Of a DNA stretch of 64,000 nt, positions 4,894 through 59,994 are shown in pieces. A program made the position numbers and the translations under genes. The stretch is from an uncultured Bacteroidales bacterium (GTDB lineage Bacteria > Bacteroidota > Bacteroidia > Bacteroidales > Muribaculaceae). The number at the start of each line of letters is the position of its first letter. The first letter of the stretch is position 1. The stretch is from positions 1 to 64,000 of the forward strand of contig CACZAC010000023.1 of assembly GCA_902779125.1 (NCBI GenBank), written 5' to 3'. Under the pieces are notes generated by a model. The model did no database searches and was not told the DNA's origin. It saw only the letters and a program-made list of their open reading frames with translations.

Positions 4894-7800
4894 ATGAAAC
4901 AGCAGATTCTTCATTTTATATTGATTGTCATATTATCTGTGGCATTCCCGTTCAACGCAACGGGTAATGACAATAGAATAATTGACTTCAATTATCCGCA
5001 GGTGGTGTCCAATGAGGCGCTTGCCGAGCTTGACATAGCGCTCAAGGCAGGCGACGGCGAACTCACGGTGGACGCGCTGGTGCGTTACAGCATCGCCCAG
5101 AGCGGAATCTCCAAAGACAATATGCCGGAAATCGTCAAACGGCTGGAGTCCACTATCGCTAAGGAGAAGAAGCCCCACATCAAGGCGTTGCTCTACTACT
5201 TCGAGGCGATGGTCTATCAAGGCTACTGCAACCGCTACGCCCGCCGGAGCGACCGCAACAATCCTGTCGAGGAGATTCCTGCCGACGTGAGCGAGTGGGA
5301 CCGCAACCAGTTCTATAAAAAGATTGCAGAATTGGTGGAGAAATCCCTTGCCGAGCCCGAGGCCCTCAAGGCCGTGGCGGTGACGTCACTGCCCGGCATC
5401 ATCGAGTGCAACGAGTTGGGCGCGACCTATGTCCCTACCCTATTTGAATTCCTGTCGATGAAAAGCCTGGAATTGCTAAAGGATAATGATGAACTCATTG
5501 ACCGCATCAAGACCGACTGGCTTAACGTTACCGATGGTCATGACGCCCCCAACATGTATGCCGTGATTCAAACCGGCAAAGGGGACCTCCGCGCCGCCTA
5601 CGACCGTTACCGCGACAGCGAGCACAACGCCCTACTACTTCCCAAACTCAGTTTTGACGACAACAAACAGAAATATGCCGAGTTGAAGCAATACCTGCAG
5701 CGTTTTCCCTCATCGATTTACACCGCTCAGGTCAAGAACATGATTTTCGACTTAGAGGAGAAGCTTATTGATGTTTCCTATCCCGACGTCCTCTCCTCGC
5801 GTGACACGATCACCGTGACCGCCGATGTCAGCAACGTGGGCACCTATTGGCTGAATGTGTATCGCGTCCCTGACGACTTACAGTACATATACGAATTTGA
5901 GTATGACAAGTTGAAGTTCGTCTCGCAGACGCAAGTCATGGTACAAGGCACCGTGCCGTTCAGAGCAAGCGACATCAAGACAGAACTGCCACCGCTGCCT
6001 TACGGCCGCTACATCATTTTTCCCTTGCTGAATAAGGACGAGAGGCCGCATCGGTACGTCAATACTTATTATAAACTGTTGCGTGTTACCGACATCGGCA
6101 ATTTCACCGTGAGCCGTAAGGGCAAGGAAGGTATCATTGCAGCTGTGGACATTACTACCGGCAAACCCTTGCCCGACGTGACCGTTATCAATGAGCATAA
6201 CAGCAAAATAGGCAATACCGGCAACGACGGAACGCTCAATCTCTCCAGCAAGTATGAGGGAGATTTGCGCACCGTCAAGGGTGATGACCGATTTGGTCCC
6301 GAGAGCGATTATTATCATCAAATCGTCTACCACAGCTTTGACGAAATTACAGCCAAATTCTACAGCGACTTAGGCGTTTATCGTCCCGGCGAAACCGTTC
6401 AGTGGGCTATTATTGTTTATAACGCCACTGACAAAGGCGCCACCCCCTGGGGAGACGAAGAATTCACCGTAATCTTGAAAGATCCTAACTACAAGGATAT
6501 CGACACGGTAATTGTTACCAGCGACGAGTACGGACGCATCGAGGGCTCATTCGTCATACCCAAGGACCGCATGAACGGCAGGTTCCACATTTATCTTGAT
6601 TTCTCATATTTAAGAAGCATTGGATGGCCTGTGAACGTGAGCGAATACAAGACGCCGACGTTTGAGGTCACCTTCCCCGATGCGCGTCGCAGTTATGTCG
6701 CCGGCCAGTCTGTAAAGGTGACCGGTAAAGCGATGAACTACAGTGGTGTGCCTATTGCCAATAGCGAGGTGCGCCTGTCACTCATCCAGAACCAGTGGTC
6801 ATGGTGGTGGAGCATGCGCAACAACAATGGCAAACACCTGCAAGATACCACCGTTGTGACCGACGCCCAAGGCAACTTCAACATAGAATTTGCTCCTGAC
6901 CTTTTCCTGGAGAACAAGGACTTGAAACCCGGCAAGCGCTGTTGGGCACGCTATAACTATAGGGTTCTCGCCACCGTGACCAACGATGCCGGCGAGACTC
7001 ATGAGGAGAGCACCTCGTTCATTGTGGGCACGCGCCGAGGCATCGAGTTGGGCAGTGAGAGCGAAAACGTCTATCTCAACGACCAGCCCATCAAACTGCC
7101 GTTGAAATACAACACCACCGACGAGGAACACCCCAACACCTGGTGCACGTGGGAAGTGACGAAGAAGGGCAGTAAGGAGCCTGCACTGACAGGCAACCTG
7201 AACACCGCTGACCCAACCATCGACCTGACCAGCCTGTCCTCGTGCGAATACACCCTCAAAATCCACATCCTCGATGCCGAGGAGGGCGAGCAGGACGTTG
7301 ACGTGAGCCGTGACATCATCCTCTACCGCAAGGGTGACAAGACCTCGCCCGTCAAGGATTGCCCGCTATGGATTTCTCCGTTCGGAAAGAGTGTGGACAA
7401 GGGCAACAAGGGCCACATCACCGTCGGTGTGTCTACCCCAAAGGCTTACATCTATTATGTCGCCAGTACCGCCAAGGATATCATCAGCGAGGGTTGGTTG
7501 AATTACAAAGCCGGCATGAACGATTTCACCGTTCCCTTGCCCAAGGAGGCAGGAGCAGACGTGACCGTATCGTTCATTACCTACTACGGCACCAAGAAAT
7601 GGGAAAAAGAGGTGAAATTGGCAAATACGTACAAAGCCGAGGCACTGAAAATTACTGCCACCTCGTTCCGCGACAAACTCGTGCCGGGTAACATTGAGCG
7701 TTGGTCATTCACACTGACCGACCAGAACGGCAAGCCTCGTCCCGGCGCTATGTTGCTCGACATGTATGACAAAGCCATCGCTAGCATTGCAAAGAACGGC

Positions 7801-56131: not shown

Positions 56132-58339
56132 TTATTTTTTCTCTTCGGGGGCGGGGGCGGGAGCAGCGGCGGCCTTGGCGGCGGCAATGCTGTCCTGCTG
56201 GGCCTTGTAGGCCTTGGCAGCCTCGCTACCGGGCTTCAGCCACGTGTCGAGCCAGCGGAAGAACTCGCGCTGCCACAGGATGCTGTTCTGGGGCTTGAGA
56301 ATCCAGTGGTTCTCGTCGGGGAAGAGCAGCAGACGTGCGGGCAGCCCCTTAATCTTGGCGGCATTGAATGCCTGGCAAGCCTGGGTGAAGACGATACGGT
56401 AATCCAACTCACCAGCGGTACACATGATGGGGGTATCCCAGTTCTGAACGTAGTTCTTGGGGTTGGCCTGAGTGTAGGAACGCTGTGCGGTAGCGTTGCT
56501 CTTGTCCCAGTACGGACCACCGAGGTCCCACTGCACGAACCACATCTCCTCGGTCTCGAGATACTGGGCCTCGAGGTTGAAGATACCGGCGTGTGCCAGG
56601 AAGCAGGCGAAGCGCTTGTTGTGGTTACCGGCAAGGAAGTAAACCGAATAGCCACCATAGCTGGCGCCAACGGCACCGATGTGTTCACCATCGATGTAAG
56701 GTTCCTTCTTCATGTAATCCACAGCGCTGAGGTAGTCACGCATATTCTGGCCACCGTAATCGCCACTGATCTGGGCGTTCCACTCGGTGCCGAAGCCCGG
56801 CAGACCACGACGGTTGGGCAGGATAACGATGTAGCCGTTGCTGGCCATGATGCGCATGTTCCAGCGATAGCTCCAGAACTGGCTCACAGGTGACTGCGGA
56901 CCGCCCTCACAGAAGAGGATAGCGGGATACTTCTTGTTGGGGTCGAAGTTGGGCGGGTAGCATACCCAAGTGGTCATCAGCTTGCCATCGGTGGTGGGCA
57001 CCATGCGCTTCTCGATGCCGATGGGGTCAACCTGGGCGAGAGCCTCGTCGTTGACGTGGGTGAGCTGAACGGGCTCCTTACCCATCTGAATGCTGCAGAT
57101 TTCATTGGGGGTCTGGTAGCTCTGGCGGCAAGCGATAACGGTCTCATTATCGGGGAATGCCATGCTGTTGAAGTCACACACGCCCATGGCGATGGTGTCC
57201 ACCTTCTGGGTAGCGACATCCATGCGGAAGATGGGCTGCGTGCCCTGGAACGGGCAGATGAAATAGATGGCCTTCTCGTCGGGCGACCAGGCGATTTCAT
57301 CCACGCTGTAGTCCCAGTTCTCGGTCAGGTCCTTCTTGTTGCCGGCAGCATCCATGAAGAAGATGCGGTTCTTGTCGGCCTCGTAGCCGTCGTGTTCCAT
57401 CGAGAGCCAAGCCATCTCGCCCTTGCTGTTGATGATGGGATAGGTGTCATAGCCCATCATGCCCTGCGTCAGGTTCTCGGTCTTGCCGGTCTCGAGGTTA
57501 TACTTGTACAGGTCGCTGTTGGTCGAGAAAGCGTAGTCCTTGCCGGTCTTCTTGCGGCAAACGTACACGAGGTTCTTGCCGTCGGGAGTCCAAGCCAGCG
57601 ACTCGATGCCGCCCCAAGGCTTCATCGGCGACTCATAGGGCTCGCCCTCGAGGACGTCCTTCACGTTGCCGGCCTTGCTGCCGTCATAGTCAGCCACAAA
57701 GGGGTGAGGAATGGTGGTCACCCACTCGTCCCAGTGCTTGTACATCATGTCGTCATAGAGTTTGCCCGTGGTCTTATCCAAATCGGGATAAACGTCTTGT
57801 ACAGTCTGGCCATACTTGACTTGTGAAATCATGACCACGCGCTTCTCGTCGGGCGAGAAGACGAAGCCCTCGATGCCGTCCTCGACATCGCTCACGCAGT
57901 TGCGGCCACCGCCGTCGGCGTTCATGGTCCACAGCTGAGGGGTCTTGCCCTCACCTTCATCCTTGTAGATGAAAGCAATCTTCTTGCCTCCGTCAATCCA
58001 CACATAGTTGCTCTCGCTGTTGGGCGTGTTGGTAATCTGACGGGCGTTCTGGCCGTCAACATCCATCACCCAGAGGTCGCAGTTGCCCTTGTTGGTGGTG
58101 ATGTCATAATAGGTAACGCCATACAGGATTTTCTTGCCGTCGGGCGAAACCTGGGGACCGCCCACGCGACCCAACTGATTGAGGAATTCGGGAGTGAACT
58201 CTTTCTTTTCCATCTTACCGGAAGTTTTCTCGGTGGCAGGAGCCTGACCGGGAGCCGCATTTTCCTGCTTGGAGCAGGTCGAGGAACTCAACAGGGCCAA
58301 CACCGCAACCGACATTGCTGTTAACTTGAAGAATTTCAT
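56132..58339 (-). CDS. S9 family prolyl oligopeptidase, dipeptidyl-peptidase 5-like
   Basis: The 735-residue exported peptidase has a signal peptide ending near 'LLSSSTCSKQ', possibly a lipoprotein although the lipobox is non-standard. A seven-bladed beta-propeller follows ('PQVSPDGKKILYGVTYYD', 'FVFSPDEKRVVMISQ', 'IAWSPDEKAIYFICPF'). The alpha/beta-hydrolase domain has Ser560 in 'GAVGASYGGYSVYFLAG', Asp in 'CTAGELDYRIVF' and His in 'LFPDENHWILKP'. The layout matches DPP5 (S9C), which removes dipeptides from peptides for asaccharolytic growth. The C-terminus is an Ala/Pro/Glu tail. The start at 58339 is chosen over 58393. Confidence 0.9.
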   Translation of the reverse strand: MKFFKLTAMSVAVLALLSSSTCSKQENAAPGQAPATEKTSGKMEKKEFTPEFLNQLGRVGGPQVSPDGKKILYGVTYYDITTNKGNCDLWVMDVDGQNARQITNTPNSESNYVWIDGGKKIAFIYKDEGEGKTPQLWTMNADGGGRNCVSDVEDGIEGFVFSPDEKRVVMISQVKYGQTVQDVYPDLDKTTGKLYDDMMYKHWDEWVTTIPHPFVADYDGSKAGNVKDVLEGEPYESPMKPWGGIESLAWTPDGKNLVYVCRKKTGKDYAFSTNSDLYKYNLETGKTENLTQGMMGYDTYPIINSKGEMAWLSMEHDGYEADKNRIFFMDAAGNKKDLTENWDYSVDEIAWSPDEKAIYFICPFQGTQPIFRMDVATQKVDTIAMGVCDFNSMAFPDNETVIACRQSYQTPNEICSIQMGKEPVQLTHVNDEALAQVDPIGIEKRMVPTTDGKLMTTWVCYPPNFDPNKKYPAILFCEGGPQSPVSQFWSYRWNMRIMASNGYIVILPNRRGLPGFGTEWNAQISGDYGGQNMRDYLSAVDYMKKEPYIDGEHIGAVGASYGGYSVYFLAGNHNKRFACFLAHAGIFNLEAQYLETEEMWFVQWDLGGPYWDKSNATAQRSYTQANPKNYVQNWDTPIMCTAGELDYRIVFTQACQAFNAAKIKGLPARLLLFPDENHWILKPQNSILWQREFFRWLDTWLKPGSEAAKAYKAQQDSIAAAKAAAAPAPAPEEKK

Positions 58340-58407
58340 AATAATTGTACTGTTAATGATGTATTTAGTGTTAAATTGGTTTTCAGCTTGCACATTATTT
58401 TAAACTG

Positions 58408-58495: not shown

Positions 58496-58574
58496 GACAA
58501 CCAAAAACGATTGTCTTTTCTGAAAACAACCAAAAACGGTTGTTTCTTGAAAAAACAATCAAAAATGGTTGTTT
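58496..58574. promoter_or_regulatory. Three phased palindromes (29-bp period), probable operator of the SatD-like gene
   Basis: The core ACAAyCAAAAAyGryTGT begins at 58497, 58526 and 58555, exactly 29 bases apart. Copy 2 is a perfect 8-bp inverted repeat (AAACAACC-N6-GGTTGTTT), copy 3 has one mismatch, and copy 1 keeps GACAA/TTGTC. The third copy overlaps the -33 region of the promoter at 58568-58599. Confidence 0.8.
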
Positions 58575-58599
58575 ATATCATATATTATATATAGTTTTG
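58568..58599 (+). promoter_or_regulatory. SatD-DUF3307 promoter (GTTG-N20-TAgtTTTG)
   Basis: The -7 box TAGTTTTG at 58592-58599 is exact. GTTG at 58568-58571 is an acceptable -33 with a 20-base spacer, and is part of palindrome copy 3. Confidence 0.65.
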
Positions 58600-58627
58600 C
58601 ACCGACAATCATAACATGTCATTCATT

Positions 58628-59275
58628 ATGAAAGGAATCATTACCGGCGATATCGTGGATTCTTCCCAAATCAGCGCCGAATACCGGGGCGAGCTGCTCA
58701 AGTGCCTCAACACGATGGGCGATGAGTTGCAATGCGTCACACCATTCTCGATGGAACTGTTCCGCGGCGACAGTTTCCAACTGCTCATCGACGAGCCCAG
58801 TGCAGCGATAAAAATCGCCATCCTGCTGAGGGCGGGACTTATACGGCACACGGCAAGCAAGGAAAACGGCATGTGGGATGCGCGCATCTCGCTGGGCATC
58901 GGCAATGTCGAATTCCTGTCGGAACGTATCGTCACATCCGATGGCGAAGCCTTCCACTACTCAGGACGGCAACTTGATGAAATGGGCAAGCAACGCCTCG
59001 CTGTCAAGACGCCCTGGCAGGATGTGAACGATGAACTTGCACTCTCCACGGCATTTATCGACGACATCATCAACGGGTGGTCCAGCAAGCAGGCAGGGAT
59101 GATTTACCTCGCACTCCGTCAGGACACCCCCAAGAAGGACATCGCCAAACTCATCGGCACGTCGGTGCAGAATGTGCGCAACGTGCTCTCTTCTGCCAAG
59201 GAAAGCCTTGTCCGGAAATATATCGAACGCTACCGCGATATCATCATGAGCCACCATAGCCAACCGACGATATGA
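58628..59275 (+). CDS. SatD family protein with a C-terminal helix-turn-helix
   Basis: The 215-residue soluble protein has an N-terminal half ('MKGIITGDIVDSSQISAEYR', 'MELFRGDSFQLLID', 'AAIKIAILLRAGLIR', 'ARISLGIGNVEFL', 'SDGEAFHYSGRQLDEM') that matches the SatD family, which has a cyclase-like alpha/beta pattern. The C-terminal ~70 residues ('QAGMIYLALRQDTPKKDIAK', 'LIGTSVQNVRNVLSSAKESL') form a sigma-region-4/HTH-like segment that should bind DNA. It overlaps the next gene by ATGA. An alternative ATG at 58616 adds four residues. Likely an autoregulator acting on the three palindromes (inference). Confidence 0.75.
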   Translation: MKGIITGDIVDSSQISAEYRGELLKCLNTMGDELQCVTPFSMELFRGDSFQLLIDEPSAAIKIAILLRAGLIRHTASKENGMWDARISLGIGNVEFLSERIVTSDGEAFHYSGRQLDEMGKQRLAVKTPWQDVNDELALSTAFIDDIINGWSSKQAGMIYLALRQDTPKKDIAKLIGTSVQNVRNVLSSAKESLVRKYIERYRDIIMSHHSQPTI

Positions 59276-59994
59276 ACATCATCATCCTACTCAAGCTATT
59301 ATCGGCACATGTCATCGCCGATTTCTTCCTGCAGTTTGACATATTGTGCCAATCCAAGCACGAGAAGAACTGGCGCGGGGTTACAGCCCAAGCCATCCAT
59401 GCGCTCATCCATGCCCTGTGCGCCTATCTCCTGCTTGCCGACTGGGGCGCTTGGGTAATTCCGCTGGTGATTTTTGTAACGCATTTCATCATCGACATCC
59501 TCAAAATCAAGTGGAACGGGAACAGCACGCTGGGATTCCTCAGCGACCAGGTGGCACACATCGGCGTCATTCTCGCTTTGTGGTGGGCCTACTATGCCGA
59601 CCACACTCAAGTGCTGGACGCGACGAGCACATTCATCAACTCCAGGCGCCTGTGGGCTGTGCTGCTGGGCTATATGCTGGTCCTGAAGCCCGCTTCCATC
59701 CTCATCAGCGTTTTCATCAAGCGCTGGATTCCCTCCAACAACATGCAATCCCAAGGGATGCCCTTTGCTGGCGCCTGGATCGGCTACATCGAGCGTGTAC
59801 TGATTCTGACCTTTATCATCACCGGCAACATCGAGGGCGTCGGCTTCCTGCTGGCGGCAAAATCCATCTTCCGCTTCGGTGACCTGAACAAGGCGCGCGA
59901 GATTAAAATCACAGAGTATGTCCTGCTGGGCACTCTGGCAAGTTTCTCGATTGCGCTGTTGACAGGCTTTGCCATCAATATGTATATTCATTAA
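59272..59994 (+). CDS. DUF3307 family membrane protein
   Basis: The 240-residue polytopic membrane protein begins 'IIILLKLLSAHVIADFFLQF' followed by 'CQSKHEKNWRGVTAQAIHAL' and 'VIFVTHFIIDILKIKW', the DUF3307 signature with conserved His/Asp in membrane segments. About six hydrophobic segments are visible, including the C-terminal 'YVLLGTLASFSIALLTGFAI'. ATGA overlap with the SatD-like gene means the two are translated together. Function unknown; the conserved polar residues suggest an enzyme or transporter in the membrane. Confidence 0.85.
   Translation: MNIIILLKLLSAHVIADFFLQFDILCQSKHEKNWRGVTAQAIHALIHALCAYLLLADWGAWVIPLVIFVTHFIIDILKIKWNGNSTLGFLSDQVAHIGVILALWWAYYADHTQVLDATSTFINSRRLWAVLLGYMLVLKPASILISVFIKRWIPSNNMQSQGMPFAGAWIGYIERVLILTFIITGNIEGVGFLLAAKSIFRFGDLNKAREIKITEYVLLGTLASFSIALLTGFAINMYIH

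Follow-up and report, generated by a model that had tools for sequence, protein, structure and literature searches.

The gene pair and its upstream palindromes

The window, the whole 64,000-nucleotide stretch of DNA that was analysed, carries a pair of overlapping genes preceded by three regularly spaced palindromes. The features of this region are given below by position and strand.

56132-58393, - strand: dipeptidyl-peptidase Dpp5 (S9 peptidase), above the NCBIfam cut-off
58497-58514, no strand: palindrome 1, ACAACCAAAAACGATTGT
58526-58543, no strand: palindrome 2, ACAACCAAAAACGGTTGT, 29 bp from palindrome 1
58555-58572, no strand: palindrome 3, ACAATCAAAAATGGTTGT, 29 bp from palindrome 2, with a -33-like TTG in its right arm
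58592-58599, + strand: -7-like element, TAGTTTTG
58616-59275, + strand: gene 1, predicted regulator with a cyclase fold and a helix-turn-helix (HTH), 219 aa
58628-59017, + strand: predicted class III nucleotide-cyclase fold of gene 1, approximately residues 1-130 of a 215-aa form, with D8 and D48 conserved
59075-59272, + strand: HTH part of gene 1, approximately residues 150-215, sigma-70 region 4/LuxR (GerE)-like
59272-59994, + strand: gene 2, DUF3307 membrane protein, 240 aa
60012-62216, + strand: GH92 glycoside hydrolase

Each palindrome is 18 bp long, with 6-bp arms around a 6-nt spacer, and the three are exactly 29 bp apart from center to center. Their starts (58497, 58526, and 58555) and their period are exactly those given by an earlier, sequence-only reading of this DNA; its description of 29 bp as nearly three helical turns should be corrected to ∼2.8 turns. 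A scan of the whole genome (3,354,638 bases) for the pattern ACAAYCNNNNNNGRTTGT returned 3 exact sites, all in this array. One mismatch gave 15 genome sites, compared with 39 for a reversed control pattern, and the 12 that lie outside the array are single and on other contigs. Within the window, a scan at 3 mismatches found 3 sites, a number reached by 2 of 100 shuffles (shuffle mean, 0.32).

The array lies upstream of the -7-like element, which fits TAnnTTTG, the motif that we take to be the Bacteroidales -7 consensus, and TA..TTTG is retained in same-genus orthologues. Because the -33-like TTG at 58569 sits in the right arm of palindrome 3, this palindrome overlaps the -33-like element, in agreement with the earlier reading. 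The same-genus orthologues in G036, G002, and G019 retain the half-sites and the 29-bp steps; G002 and G019 carry two palindrome pairs 42 to 45 bp apart, and the DNA around their sites is much altered.

For gene 1, an alternative start at 58628 (215 aa) suits the alignment of relatives better than the first start does. A Pfam search placed the protein in no family above cut-off, but its predicted model (pLDDT 89, pTM 0.89) has a class III nucleotidyl cyclase fold, with class III adenylyl and guanylyl cyclases as the best Foldseek matches (4wp8, E 3.1e-5, TM 0.63 by target length) and GGDEF, PycC, and Cas10-containing structures ranking lower. A relationship of the N-terminal domain to nucleotide cyclases had been suspected from the sequence, and the predicted fold bears this out. 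Among 140 members of the family, D48 is present in all 140 and D8 in 135, at the positions to which we assign, as our own assumption, the metal-ligand Asp roles; R86 (134), S112 (129), and G113 (134) are also conserved. At the positions that we presume to correspond to the transition-state residues, the canonical cyclase Arg (Arg-114) is found in only 73 of the 140, and Asn does not rank among the seven most frequent residues of position 110. Since these Asn and Arg positions are not conserved, the pocket may no longer do what it does in cyclases; nucleotide binding by this domain is plausible, and classical cyclase chemistry is doubtful.

The region-4-like HTH that had been read at the C terminus is visible, at scores below the Pfam cut-off, and of 29 relatives, 20 match sigma-70 region 4 in this part and 17 match GerE (E ≤ 1, best 5e-7). 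The accompanying SatD label did not hold up. SatD (PF16264) is a family of similar length (profile of 211 positions), but the window protein does not match it at E 0.1, falling below the gathering score of 29 bits, and weak matches occur in only 2 of the 29 relatives (best E 0.013); with neither the window protein nor its relatives reaching the cut-off, we rejected membership of gene 1 in SatD. A SatD profile search of the genome, run without a positive control, found no match. In the accessible portions of the literature searched, SatD appears in annotation or sat-operon contexts, and those portions describe no SatD arrays. One gene-1 relative (L016, 1486-2970) has a long C-terminal extension and totals 494 aa.

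Gene 2 overlaps gene 1 by the ATGA at 59272-59275, the overlap seen in the earlier reading, and belongs to DUF3307 (PF11750; 66.5 bits against a gathering score of 23, E 2.9e-18). Invariant positions across 26 DUF3307 relatives are H13, D17, Q21, H43, H71, D75, D92-Q93, H96, and those of a C-terminal block. The predicted model (pLDDT 83, pTM 0.77) matches nothing in the PDB at E ≤ 0.001, and among the predicted viral structures of BFVD it comes closest to short DUF3307 proteins of phages (best E 3.1e-3). Short stand-alone DUF3307 proteins of phages (∼94 to 131 aa; records MH517022.1 and OQ032512.1, Ralstonia phage RP12, Rhizobium phage P9VFCI, and Serratia phage BF) correspond to the N-terminal half. 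In the non-subscription literature searched, one paper names DUF3307, in a phage gene table.

Fixed step and changing letters in relatives

Two sets of relatives were compared, with automatic alignments and start choices, and relatedness inflates the family counts that follow. In the first, 140 matched loci with 116 distinct proteins were reduced to 87 (<80% identity, start found, and at least 250 bp upstream); the larger set kept 208 of 211 sequences, the other 3 being partial or having short upstream DNA, and was reduced to 140 at 70% identity. Palindromes with perfect 6-bp arms and an 8-nt spacer number 131 upstream in the 87 relatives, versus 11.3 ± 3.3 in shuffles. Dyads are 29 bp apart at 30 of these loci, 14 bp apart at 11, 28 bp apart at 9, and 30 bp apart at none, with shuffles giving 0.0 to 0.3 for these distances and, at 29 bp, a mean of 0.0 and a maximum of 1 locus.

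Strict arrays are present in 81 of the 140 members. With mismatches allowed and periods of 20 to 45 compared, the single best period at a score of at least 22 is 28 bp in 49 members and 29 bp in 62, with no other period represented (n = 111), and at a score of at least 18 it is 28 or 29 bp in 115 of 126 (from the 140 members); members with tied best periods are excluded from the 111 and the 126 (e.g., L023, score 22, with 29 and 33). AT-rich control segments (n = 113) had a single best period in 63 cases at a score of at least 18, of which 7 were at 28/29 and the rest spread, and in 8 cases at a score of at least 22, of which 3 were at 28/29. Of 347 control upstream regions, 6 contained a pair at 29 bp, 7 a pair at 14.5 bp, 2 a pair at 14 bp, and none a pair at 28 bp. 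Absence of palindromes upstream of orthologous pairs had been named beforehand as the observation that would refute the earlier reading, and instead the 29-bp pairs occur at those 30 of 87 loci and a period of 28 or 29 in all 111 members at the higher score.

In the 400 bp preceding gene 1, arrays of at least three dyads at one exact period (20 to 40) have periods of 28 (15 arrays), 29 (20), or 21 (1) in the 211 sequences, and 1.11 Mb of DNA elsewhere contains such arrays at periods of 29 (5) and 21 (1). Of the five 29-bp arrays elsewhere, four are found in the interval that separates gene 1 from DUF3307, and the remaining one belongs to an orthologue, upstream of which it is located. The largest array, in L039, has nine dyads. 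On a FastTree tree, the distribution of periods requires at least 12 switches between 28 and 29. Among proteobacterial plasmids, the period is 29 bp in L178 and L180 and 28 bp in L181, L182 (before DUF3307), and L185, and an array was not seen in L177. Some DUF3307-bearing members have no clear array, and one member (L052) has an array with DUF3307 not found.

Array geometry is constant across members while the letters of the half-sites vary, and letters that vary between species at constant spacing point to an undescribed self-specific switch. A search of the non-subscription literature found no description of such arrays.

Distribution of the pair and a possible defense role

Gene 1 was found in 92 of 395 genomes of the phylum (Bacteroidota) and DUF3307 in 94, with both in 89, according to genome lists that were compared by eye and apparently stem from the same 395-genome draw. 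Gene 1 is also found in 82 of 393 genomes of the order, 19 of these matches being weak (E 1e-5 to 1e-3), and in 11 of 61 close relatives, including G001, whose weak match looks unrelated. The locus set leaves out these 19 weak matches, the partial matches in G154, G166, and G185, and the phylum genomes G476, G577, G691, G725, and G734. DUF3307 follows gene 1 at 79 of 87 loci in one set and 94 of 95 in another, and when neighbors at 140 loci were clustered, DUF3307 accounted for 120 and every other cluster for at most 9. Gene 1 and DUF3307 are a near-obligate module throughout the Bacteroidota and in some Proteobacteria.

A plasmid search returned 16 records with gene-1 relatives, 10 of which were examined individually; the hosts are Klebsiella, Escherichia, Enterobacter, Vibrio, Salinivibrio, Pseudoalteromonas, Pseudomonas, Sphingomonas, and Segatella. 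Escherichia coli genomes gave no DNA match to two of the proteobacterial pairs. The window gene 1 protein was unmatched in phage records, and three gene-1 queries confirmed no relative in viral contigs, results on which we rejected a phage origin of gene 1. A DUF3307 query found six viral-labeled contigs, five with a gene-1 relative, among them L246, whose dyads are 14.5 bp apart.

One clade of gene 1 (L009, L040, L043, and L045) lacks DUF3307 and shares a downstream gene that by eye resembles glycoside hydrolase family 2; there is no clear 28/29-bp array upstream in these four, L045 being borderline at 28. A GH92-like gene lies downstream of the module in L007 (by eye), as it does in the window.

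Alternatively, the pair could serve in anti-phage defense or conflict, much as Pycsar or Panoptes (optSE) does; gene 1 would then be an active nucleotide cyclase or polymerase, DUF3307 its membrane effector, and the array a means of setting expression only. As in those systems, a palm-fold or cyclase protein is encoded next to a membrane protein, and the cyclase fold with both metal-ligand positions kept, the PycC structure among the fold matches, and the sporadic presence of gene 1 among genomes all fit such a role. So does carriage as plasmid cargo: on pEC34A (L176, 3770 bp) and a Klebsiella pneumoniae plasmid (L178, 4424 bp), the pair is the main cargo beyond replication and mobilization genes. 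On a Sphingomonas insulae plasmid (L182, NZ_CP048421.1 68022-78624), the pair adjoins genes whose annotations name a Pycsar effector, an adenylate/guanylate cyclase, a TIR domain protein, and an ImmA/IrrE peptidase, and in the genome that the window comes from, a second gene-1 copy (L084, G000:C26:46000-60000; 5165-5950, + strand) overlaps a convergent PycTM gene (5850-6461, - strand; E 8e-11). This second copy has no DUF3307 partner, the genome having one DUF3307 match.

Against a defense role stand the lack of conservation at the catalytic Asn and Arg positions and, among the loci examined, the restriction of PycTM-like genes to two. The effector families in the accessible parts of the Panoptes and Pycsar descriptions are other than DUF3307 (OptE with an mCpol-domain protein in Panoptes; PycTM, for example, with PycC in Pycsar), and the portion of the Panoptes main text consulted lacks the words SatD and HTH. 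PADLOC, which holds no DUF3307 family, found no Pycsar system for the window pair, where the partner of gene 1 is DUF3307 rather than a Pycsar effector beside PycC, and gave gene 1 a weak match in the HTH region only. The 130 neighbor proteins sampled (of 261 selected nearest neighbors) were, among the matches listed, mostly housekeeping with few defense genes, and defense islands were not seen as a general setting. A defense role of the pair is only weakly supported, and we consider this explanation unlikely.

Probable binding by gene 1 and probable control of DUF3307

Across 114 arrays (6328 pairs, each half-site being the arm consensus of the best array pair), half-site similarity tracks the gene-1 recognition helix, with a partial rank correlation of 0.256, corrected for the N-terminal domain, that none of 300 permutations reached; the converse value, for the N-terminal domain, is -0.025. 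This result was positive in one of two attempts: an earlier, cruder extraction gave no helix correlation (0.01) and had picked GC-rich words rather than half-sites. L004 and L052 have AAACAACC and GTSVQN in common, yet their periods are 29 and 28 bp. Together with the position of the array over the promoter, this co-variation favors binding of gene 1 to its own array; the computational support for such binding is strong, and from it we infer physical binding.

Where the two genes are separated (gaps of 74 to 259 bp), an array with a single best period of 28 or 29 lies before DUF3307 in 16 of 20 members, 12 with a score of at least 22, and a best period of 28/29 before gene 1 occurs in none of the 20. 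These were taken from 26 members with an apparent gap of >60 bp, six of which (L016, L054, L068, L082, L121, and L153) were dropped by eye for mis-set DUF3307 starts or altered genes. In one clade, then, the array travels with DUF3307, which implies autoregulation where one promoter serves both genes. The autoregulated module proposed from the sequence survives in its core, through the arrays, the co-variation with the helix, and the shift of the array to DUF3307; its suggested control of the divergent S9 peptidase (Dpp5) does not, and we rejected it because S9 peptidases are not recurrent neighbors (2 of 130 sampled proteins, among the matches listed).

The motif TAnnTTTG occurs near the last dyad with 65 hits, at 51 of 87 array-bearing loci, compared with 2 for the reversed motif, and this clustering favors repression by occlusion, short of proof. 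Gene 1 most likely represses the operon and, in effect, DUF3307. It might instead activate transcription by recruiting RNA polymerase from the array, as could be expected of arrays that, in the window and many other members, lie mostly upstream of the -7 element; we think this improbable, given that the -33-like element, and often the -7 element as well, is overlapped by arrays and that some extend to the region of the start codon. Binding of the arrays by another, global regulator, with their location at this operon incidental, is very improbable: HTHs of the region-4/LuxR type are common, but the half-sites track the gene-1 helix, the motif is unique within the genome, the letters change from member to member at constant geometry, and every three-dyad 28/29-bp array in the DNA examined precedes gene 1 or its DUF3307. 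RNA hairpins or chance palindromes can be dismissed, even though palindromes can fold as RNA and the upstream regions are AT rich (GC 0.33), since in the window the array precedes the -7 element, no Rfam family reached its gathering score, and palindromes exceed both shuffles and control upstream regions.

We favor, as the probable reading of the whole, a cyclase-fold regulator that acts on its own 28/29-bp array and controls DUF3307, with a nucleotide as the probable signal. Gene 1 would bind palindromes whose letters suit its own recognition helix and would assemble cooperatively over the core promoter in steps of 28 or 29 bp, successive dyads being 14 or 14.5 bp apart (∼1.3 to 1.4 turns). 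Retention of the step despite the change of letters argues for contacts between neighboring dimers, from which we infer cooperativity. The assembled protein would repress the operon, in effect the DUF3307 gene, and a nucleotide or nucleotide-derived ligand, sensed in the pocket of the predicted cyclase fold, would probably loosen or tighten the assembly; the cyclase-fold domain would then be the sensor and the DUF3307 membrane protein the output. A more far-reaching version, which we put forward tentatively as the less expected outcome, is that gene 1 would form a helical polymer along promoter DNA with a fixed 28- to 29-bp step, that nucleotide binding or turnover at dimer interfaces would drive assembly and disassembly, and that the result would be an ultrasensitive, DNA-scaffolded nucleotide switch controlling a membrane protein with a new fold, with helix and half-sites rewritten together while the polymer geometry is kept.

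The favored regulator resembles class III nucleotidyl cyclases (Ma1120, Cya2, and the cUMP synthase PycC) in predicted fold and in the two Asp at metal positions, and differs from them in its attached HTH, its non-conserved Asn and Arg, its operator arrays, and its DUF3307 partner. In Xre-RES, as far as the accessible parts of its description go, the first protein acts at palindromes of its own promoter, as we propose for gene 1; here there are up to nine dyads, a 28/29-bp quantum kept throughout the family while the letters change, a domain with a predicted cyclase fold, and a partner that is a membrane protein. The analysis suggests a likely role, as a self-specific transcription switch, for an unannotated family present in nearly a quarter of the sampled Bacteroidota genomes (92/395) and links it with a membrane family, DUF3307, that only one paper in the literature searched names. 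The 114 diverged helix/operator pairs with conserved geometry are a data set for DNA-recognition codes and allow one to ask whether a cyclase fold can do the sensing in a transcription factor. The signal that switches DUF3307 on offers a route to its function. As a separate observation, the reverse strand of L052 carries, ∼200 bp past gene 1, an LpxB-like frame (by eye) with repeated TSIDTYADD... words that resemble an expanded intragenic repeat.
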